From NCBI GenBank assembly GCA_020355325.1, contig CP070664.1:978178-1019530 (forward strand): a stretch of DNA of 41,353 bases. The letters run 5' to 3'. This document shows positions 18,370-18,724 of the stretch, in pieces. Origin of the DNA: Caldifarciminota bacterium (lineage in GTDB: Bacteria > Hydrothermota > Tepidihabitantia > SM23-42). Numbering within the stretch: position 1 is the stretch's first letter; each line of letters starts with the position of its first letter. The translations under genes were made by a program, and so were the position numbers. The notes under the pieces were generated by a model, which was given only the letters and a program-made list of their open reading frames with translations, did not search any database and was not told the DNA's origin.

Positions 18370-18414
18370 CCTGACCCCTTGGTTGTTTTTTCGGAAAACA
18401 TCAAGGAGGTCAGG
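18370..18414 (+). promoter_or_regulatory. hairpin masking the RNHCP ribosome-binding site
   Basis: CCTGACC + CCTTG (18370-18381) pairs with CAAGG + A + GGTCAGG (18402-18414): 12 base pairs with one bulged A, topped by GT-GTTTT/AAAAC-AT and a UUCGG-like loop. It covers the whole AAGGAGGT site and ends one base before the ATG. Translation should need this hairpin to open. Confidence 0.65.
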
Positions 18415-18415
18415 T

Positions 18416-18724
18416 ATGAGTCGAAAAGATGAGAATAAAGGCTTCATATGCGAACACTGTGGTCACAAGGTTTTACCGATGACCAATGGTGGCTATCGTA
18501 ATCACTGCCCATTCTGTCTCTATTCCAAGCATGTCGATGGAGCGCCTGGGGACAGACGTTGTCTATGCAATGGCTTAATGGAACCCGTTGGCTTGAATTA
18601 TCATTCTCAAAAGGGTTTTCAGATAATCCACGAGTGTTTACGATGTGGGCAGAGAAATGTGAATAAAGTGGCAGAACGTACGGTTCAGCCAGATGAGATT
18701 GATGAACTTCTAAGACTCTTTTAA
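18416..18724 (+). CDS. RNHCP domain zinc-ribbon protein
   Basis: A 102-residue protein with the defining RNHCP motif (residues 28-32, RNHCPFC), an N-terminal CEHCG (12-16), CLC (49-51) and HECLRCG (72-78): Cys pairs that should bind one or two zinc ions. 'SKHVDGAPGDRR' and 'CNGLMEP' also match the family. Function of RNHCP proteins is not established; a nucleic-acid or ribosome role is only a guess from the zinc ribbons. ATG at 18416 is chosen over upstream in-frame TTG/GTG codons because it follows AAGGAGG. Single gene on its own transcript with a very long folded leader. Confidence 0.85.
   Translation: MSRKDENKGFICEHCGHKVLPMTNGGYRNHCPFCLYSKHVDGAPGDRRCLCNGLMEPVGLNYHSQKGFQIIHECLRCGQRNVNKVAERTVQPDEIDELLRLF

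Follow-up and report, generated by a model that had tools for sequence, protein, structure and literature searches.

Introduction

The control site for ribosomal protein uS7 in the str operon is about 100 nt long. Control by uS7 is exerted through coupled translation at the S12-S7 junction of that operon, in E. coli and in a cyanobacterium (PMC10931766), and both the minimal 16S rRNA fragment that binds uS7 and the contacts made by the protein have been described (PMC3548175). In the leaders of ribosomal protein (r-protein) mRNAs known to date, what is copied from the rRNA site of the r-protein concerned is no more than a few nucleotides or one small junction (PMC7247131). Among the open-licence papers searched, the literature on rRNA mimicry deals with r-protein leaders and holds none of the kind found upstream of RNHCP genes; no prior description of an RNHCP leader was found there (other papers may hold one), nor was there a paper on the RNHCP protein itself among the open-licence literature containing the word "RNHCP".

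The locus analysed here lies in a 41,353-nt stretch of DNA from a Caldifarciminota bacterium (the window), for which a hairpin masking the Shine-Dalgarno (SD) site of an RNHCP gene had been proposed from the letters of the DNA. The comparison of homologous leaders suggests that the hairpin forms just the final part of a larger leader switch.

Results

A hairpin predicted to mask the RNHCP SD site

Folding confirmed the proposed hairpin, here termed P_SD. The segment 18360-18430 has a minimum free energy (MFE) of -26.0 kcal/mol (z -3.6), equalled by none of 200 shuffles, and P_SD also forms in the 251-nt context (18200-18450) whose folding the original prediction had named as a check. Its arms, 18370-18382 and 18401-18414, pair from C18370-G18414 to G18382-U18401. 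The stem described as having twelve pairs exists, and an upper stem at 18384-18399 prolongs it to a larger hairpin. The loop described as UUCGG-type does contain UUC/UUCG, closed by a U-G pair, and is not a canonical C(UUCG)G tetraloop. Complete masking of the SD AAGGAGGT (18403-18410) was a slight overstatement, seven of the eight bases being paired and A18407 bulged (mean p_unpaired 0.125). The ATG (18416-18418) was correctly placed one base beyond the stem. The assertion that no other SD of the window is equally sequestered also holds, with an opening cost of 15.5 kcal/mol compared to 7.2 for the runner-up among 21 gene starts.

A complementary anti-SD arm is present in all 37 homologous leaders; a leader with the SD and no such arm, singled out beforehand as the finding that should overturn the prediction, does not occur among them. 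RNAalifold did not detect P_SD, the MAFFT alignment having too many gaps at the 3' end, and the compensatory changes that had been named as a check were therefore sought by permutation of pairing partners. Arms match their own partner far above the permuted level (summed duplex energy -583 vs -362 +- 18 kcal/mol; 0/20000 as low; 37 leaders). RNHCP genes lacking the leader mostly have open SDs, their median opening cost being 2.3 kcal/mol vs 10.2 in genes with the leader (p 1e-8). The evidence from these comparisons supports SD masking as a conserved and selected feature.

Layout of the leader in the window

The 880 nt between a GNAT gene (end at 17538) and RNHCP contain no long gene-like ORF, and positions 17720-18430 fold at -231 kcal/mol compared to -185 for shuffles (z -9.8). 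The leader mRNA likely starts near 17723. The features assigned to this region are collected in Table 1.

Table 1. Features of the RNHCP leader in the window, with the evidence for each
Feature	Position	Strand	Evidence
Sigma-70-like promoter TTGACA-N17-TATTAT	17688..17716	+	11/12 consensus matches; consensus match only
Shine-Dalgarno site of the uORF, AAGGAGGT	17772..17779	+	sequence
uORF MMKNGCIHTHT; stop TGA (17818-17820) at edge of 16S-like domain	17785..17820	+	stop position conserved, 36/37
P(-1) 5' strand, partner 18409-18421	17809..17821	+	13 bp; duplex -19.1 kcal/mol
P0 5' strand CAGGG, partner CCCUG (18369-18373)	17825..17829	+	outer pair Watson-Crick, 36/37
Look-alike of 16S rRNA 3' major (head) domain, with insertions	17842..18342	+	covariance models, conserved bases
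h29-like 5' strand CCAGU, partner ACUGG (18144-18148)	17867..17871	+	covarying helix, mapped onto window from sequence
Short h30-like hairpin AAGGUG/CGCCUU	17874..17893	+	Rfam alignment, covariation
h41-like stem GGCUAA (17899-17904) / UUAGCC (18101-18106); loop insertion of ~190 nt	17899..18106	+	covariation
GGUUCGGAU motif, h42-like hairpin UCGAGG/CCUCGA, then GAAG (16S ~1300-1334)	18109..18138	+	covariation, conservation
Equivalents of 16S G1337-G1338-A1339, invariant across leaders	18141..18143	+	conservation
42-nt insertion between h29 and h43 equivalents	18153..18194	+	comparison with relatives
h43-like stem AUCGC (18196-18200) / GCGGU (18309-18313); 108-nt loop insertion	18196..18313	+	comparison, covariation
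Invariant CGGAACCC and P0 3' strand (18369-18373), shared with P_SD foot	18364..18373	+	leader comparison
P_SD: anti-SD arm and SD AAGGAGGT	18370..18414	+	folding, opening cost, arm matching
P(-1) 3' strand over RNHCP start codon	18409..18421	+	permutation, duplex energy
RNHCP gene (PF12647), 102 aa, two zinc-ribbon-like Cys sets	18416..18724	+	103 bits, E 6e-30

R1, a covariance model built from leaders only, finds the window copy as two pieces of 44 and 35 bits, since three insertions divide it: ~17910-18100 in the h41 loop, 18153-18194 before h43 and 18201-18308 in the h43 loop. With one insertion at a junction and the other two in apical loops, formation of the helices is still possible. 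Such placement fits selection on the fold, and the window copy may nonetheless be impaired by its insertions. Positions 17972-18067, inside the h41-like loop, belong to a dispersed intergenic repeat with seven further copies of 81-89% identity in the same genome; the ends of this insertion are AGTAGTCAGTA and TACTAACTACT-like, which gives it a MITE-like appearance.

A look-alike of the 16S rRNA head domain

By covariance models and base conservation, the central part of the leader resembles the 3' major (head) domain of 16S rRNA, namely its helices 28-30 and 41-43, and is homologous in sequence and in fold to the lower half of that domain. Among 13 loci scanned, the bacterial 16S model RF00177 scored above cut-off in four (L019, L030, L017 and L015, at 54-62 bits where 50 is required), and a fifth, L055, passed under the archaeal SSU model, E values of leaders under Rfam SSU models ranging from 1e-12 to 4e-15. 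The alignments place the elements in the order h29-h30-(deletion)-h30'-h41-h42-h29'-h43. The five leaders scoring as SSU rRNA could be misannotated as partial 16S genes. In the Rfam scan the window copy itself stayed below the SSU cut-off, only tRNAs exceeding their cut-offs in the window. Group I and II introns, HEARO/omegaRNA, tmRNA and RNase P were considered as classes for the RNA and dropped, none giving a match.

The relationship is also recovered in the reverse direction. R1 matches 16S genes in the relatives and in 249 further genomes, the scores lying mostly at 43-64 bits (E ~1e-16) and below those of nearly all leaders (80-202 bits); four R1-matched loci were confirmed as full 16S genes (1460-1501 bits under Rfam), and E. 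coli rrsB obtains 54 bits. Within the part of the leader that maps to E. coli 1225-1393, with 16S genes of relatives and of E. coli as references, 42 of the 46 positions conserved at 90% in leaders equal the E. coli 16S base, compared to 11 of 40 variable positions. The bases kept include A1236-A1238, U1240-G1241, the GGUUCGGAU stretch near 1300, G1331-G1334, G1337-A1339, A1346-G1353 and G1370-U1376. RNAalifold on 27 leaders predicted 43 pairs, of which 34 show compensatory changes. Placement of h28/h29/h30 on the 5' side is less secure than that of the 3' part: R1 assigns this side to E. coli 1160-1200, the structural model of Rfam to 926-945. A pairing GGUUC/GGAACC inside the leader was rejected by eye, its GGUCC variants being uncompensated. 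What the leaders hold is a shortened h28-h43 part between uORF and RNHCP, and not a full-length 16S gene or 30S component. In the window's single-contig genome no 16S gene was detected under the SSU rRNA model; the stretch carrying it may be missing from the contig.

The helices of the minimal uS7-binding 16S fragment are all represented, by h29-, h30-, h41-, h42- and h43-like helices. Its contacts A1238 and U1240 are kept in 35 of 36 leaders; at position 1239 the leaders share G with the related 16S genes, where E. coli has A. The second uS7 contact, A1377-C1378, is variable, no leader having C at 1378, which weakens uS7 as the ligand. We therefore regard uS7 as a candidate ligand and draw no conclusion.

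A short upstream ORF and two long-range helices

Comparison of the leaders shows that the short ORF terminates where the 16S-like domain begins, at its 5' edge. In 36 of 37 leaders a stop codon has its end within -7..+1 of the GGGG, and any-frame stops are scarce just upstream (6/37 leaders in the preceding nine positions). An SD-like site precedes most uORFs. A conserved uORF peptide was considered and rejected, the CUCAU motif lying in different frames among species; its conservation is explained by pairing with AUGAG.

That pairing belongs to a helix, P(-1), in which the last uORF codons pair with the RNHCP start codon over 5-16 bp across leaders. In the window the ATG can pair with the end of an ORF some 600 nt upstream, the 16S look-alike lying in between, none of which formed part of the original prediction. 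The score with each leader's own partner is 833, compared to 498 +- 21 for permuted partners (16 SD; 0/20000 as high; 37 leaders). The duplex energy is -658 vs -359 +- 19 kcal/mol permuted, with 13 SD retained after thinning to 25 dissimilar sequences. A second helix, P0 (GGGN:CCCN'), closes the 16S-like domain. Its outer pair joins the base that precedes GGG to the one that follows CCC; it is Watson-Crick in 36 of 37 leaders and comprises all four pair types, the permuted mean being 16 and the maximum 26. The permutation controls for P_SD, P(-1) and P0 remove phylogeny only partly, but since the pair types vary across phyla, inheritance alone is an unlikely cause of the matches.

The three helices are interlocked. 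The P_SD foot uses the same CCCN as P0 and often shares bases with P(-1) too; in the window, where the 3' foot of P_SD is GUCAGG, P(-1) extends into that foot. The helices therefore compete, and the three of them can form a three-way junction whose branch point is able to move. Single-sequence folding of the compact leader L015 contains both P(-1) and P_SD. P0 has a median probability of 0.01 in single-sequence ensembles, where it is outcompeted by P_SD. When the uORF stop was blocked in folding as by a ribosome, median accessibility of the start codon rose from 0.24 to 0.42 (p 1e-5), and the SD stayed masked (0.12 to 0.11), so that the ON step would need more than exposure of the start codon.

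Distribution and tie to RNHCP

A Protochlamydia plasmid carries a match to 17826-17909 at 82% identity, upstream of an unannotated RNHCP gene. With the covariance model the leader was found, at about 290-300 nt, in 35 of 80 RNHCP loci from public genomes, the hosts belonging to Chloroflexota, Bacillota, Chlamydiota, Pseudomonadota and Actinomycetota as well as to candidate WOR-3/Stahlbacteria, Edwardsbacteria and Aegiribacteria. Among 150 relatives, RNHCP and leader occur in the same three genomes. The 249 genomes, from the order of Ornithinibacillus, hold seven leaders. The neighbour is RNHCP for six of them (one of these genes is interrupted by a stop and another is fragmented) and a remnant for the seventh; two further RNHCP genes have no leader. 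Forty-nine RNHCP-carrying genomes contain no leader elsewhere, except for a second, decayed one in Protochlamydia (L109), which comes with an RNHCP pseudogene; at L117 the RNHCP gene of the leader has been deleted to a remnant. The leader is so far seen only before RNHCP genes or their remnants. Distances between leaders correlate with those between proteins (Mantel r 0.45; 0/5000 permutations), as for a leader and gene inherited as one unit. The leader was not found in the phage record MT835680.1 or in the Vibrio plasmid with RNHCP.

The RNHCP protein and its neighbours

RNHCP homologues share invariant Cys pairs. The protein has no NCBIfam family and no relative in the PDB by sequence, and the best fold matches (Foldseek E 0.2; VIA Z 3.2, to the zinc-ribbon region of NrdR) are too weak to convince; it was not found in IMG/VR. 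No constant neighbour partner emerged, GNAT acetyltransferases making up only 7 of 88 neighbours. On Vibrio coralliilyticus plasmid pOCN014 (L143, 1380-2811), RNHCP overlaps rsgA, the gene of a 30S-dependent GTPase, by 14 nt, which hints at a 30S role for RNHCP. On a Streptomyces plasmid (L144, 2494-3964), a tandem RNHCP pair is followed by a gene for an FBP_C (FusB-type treble-clef) protein, the group being flanked by a Tn3 transposase and an integrase. We take rsgA and FBP_C to be translation-linked families. In Lacrimispora (L064, 2874-3001), RNHCP lacks the 16S-like leader and has its own 19-aa basic uORF (MEYERNRRKEYEKRRLHRF); a strong hairpin masks its SD, and the arrangement may be an independent attenuator. 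Its presence suggests that the RNHCP gene needs control of the uORF/SD-masking type. In two Dehalococcoidia, a Moco (molybdenum cofactor) riboswitch lies about 1 kb downstream of RNHCP (L011, 4358-4478; L015, 4357-4478).

Discussion

Proposed mechanism

We propose that the leader works as a translation-coupled double lock around a 16S-head look-alike, which would sense the state of the ribosome or a protein binding to the 16S head, a reading whose chances we consider evenly balanced. Its anatomy and covariation are shown by the compared leaders; the ligand and the ON step we infer. By default, SD and start codon would both be masked and RNHCP would be off. A ribosome finishing the uORF would cover or melt P(-1) and P0, thus exposing the start codon beside itself, and RNHCP would then be made via coupling, re-initiation or a shift of the competing helices. 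The opening might be completed by re-initiation of the terminating ribosome or, alternatively, by a junction shift set by the ligand of the 16S-like domain. The domain would serve as sensor: a protein of the 30S head would bind, lock the junction and block coupling. Free uS7 could be that protein, or RNHCP itself as a feedback repressor, a candidate for which the Cys pairs and the rsgA and FBP_C neighbours can be cited. RNHCP would be produced once 30S subunits take up the ligand protein, or when ribosomes are perturbed. The position of the 16S copy, right after a tiny uORF in the leader, suggests that the cell reads ribosome state to time RNHCP production. A bolder version, in which we place slightly less trust, has a working sub-domain of the 30S head copied into the mRNA, where it senses ribosome state directly and competes with 16S rRNA for a head factor or drug, the uORF stop at the domain edge tying the read-out to translation and RNHCP being an unrecognised 30S-head factor. 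Of the openers listed in the original prediction, a translated uORF, a 16S-like domain potentially able to bind protein and a long-range helix are all present in the leader, the actual opener being a matter of candidates. A simple thermometer (temperature was likewise listed) finds no support, nor does a stand-alone hairpin: P_SD has -26 kcal/mol at 37 C and is always joined to the larger leader.

Alternative explanations

The strongest competitor, which we nevertheless think rather unlikely, is an attenuator responsive to antibiotics or stalling. The switch would be driven by ribosomes that stall or slow down on reaching the uORF's end, RNHCP would protect or rescue ribosomes, and the 16S-like domain would mainly scaffold the junction or directly bind a drug of the 30S head. 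The uORF stop fixed at the domain edge and the masking of the start codon by the last uORF codons, as in erm-type systems, both agree with it, as do the patchy distribution with plasmid copies, the FBP_C gene adjoining RNHCP and the Lacrimispora RNHCP with a uORF attenuator of its own. The leaders compared lack a conserved arrest peptide, however; to our knowledge no drug site matches the kept 16S helices, and the extent of 16S sequence retained is left unexplained. The size and strong conservation of the domain and its 16S homology could also be accommodated by a structured RNA acting in trans, for example by titrating uS7 or RNHCP as a decoy or as a partner in an RNP, with the RNHCP ORF merely sharing its transcript. 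This is improbable, for the start-codon helix and the SD hairpin covary with the domain ends, as cis control predicts, and the leader has never been seen apart from RNHCP.

Less plausible still is the idea of a simple SD hairpin, either an RNA thermometer or a device for constitutively low expression, the remainder of the leader having no role. The local strength of P_SD speaks for such a hairpin, and is too great for a thermometer; moreover, P_SD invariably comes with uORF and 16S-like domain, across which P0 and P(-1) covary. The 16S homology, clear as it is, might finally reflect an rRNA pseudogene inserted by chance upstream of RNHCP. We give this hardly any credence: the same shortened architecture, with compensation at 34 of 43 pairs, recurs over many phyla, the link to one gene is constant, and conservation already refutes a chance origin.

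Implications and comparison with known systems

The RNHCP leader is best described, from its sequence relationships, as a putative rRNA-mimicking cis-regulatory leader that appears new in scale, target gene and architecture. In the papers searched, mimicry of rRNA by mRNA leaders is reported on the scale of small protein-binding sites, and here a 16S sub-domain recognisable by a 16S covariance model lies between the stop of a uORF and the start codon of a non-r-protein gene, in bacteria of many phyla. Our study points to the 30S head and ribosome stress as a lead on the function of the RNHCP family, so far uncharacterised, supplies assembly work with a minimal head domain of natural origin, and describes a switch open to direct test. 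A warning comes with it, in that automatic annotation can label such leaders as partial 16S genes.

Like OLE, raiA, ROOL, GOLLD and HEARO, to none of which window or leaders gave an Rfam match, the RNHCP leader is long, highly structured and patchily distributed; unlike them, it behaves as a cis element of one gene. It shares with erm-type attenuators the short upstream ORF and the masking of the downstream SD and start, and the general features of a uORF attenuator are in place: a short ORF with SD at a fixed position, followed by an SD and start masked by conserved pairing. It departs from the erm type in having no conserved peptide and in the 16S-like domain placed between uORF and gene. 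As in the S15, L20, S4 and L1 leaders of r-protein genes, a cis-acting mRNA element imitates rRNA. In contrast to these, the homology is long enough for the Rfam SSU model to call it 16S, and the downstream gene is RNHCP (PF12647), not that of an r-protein. The nearest precedent is the control by uS7, where repression acts on coupled translation (PMC10931766). The str-operon uS7 site likewise has an upstream ORF stop, a region resembling the uS7 site of 16S rRNA and a downstream start codon (PMC10931766), and the logic proposed here is similar. The differences are that one of the two uS7 contacts is missing from RNHCP leaders, so that uS7 binding is here a candidate, and that the r-protein target of the str site is replaced by a non-r-protein gene in many phyla, in front of which lie a tiny uORF dedicated to it, a 16S-homologous domain of larger size, a helix over the start codon and a hairpin over the SD.
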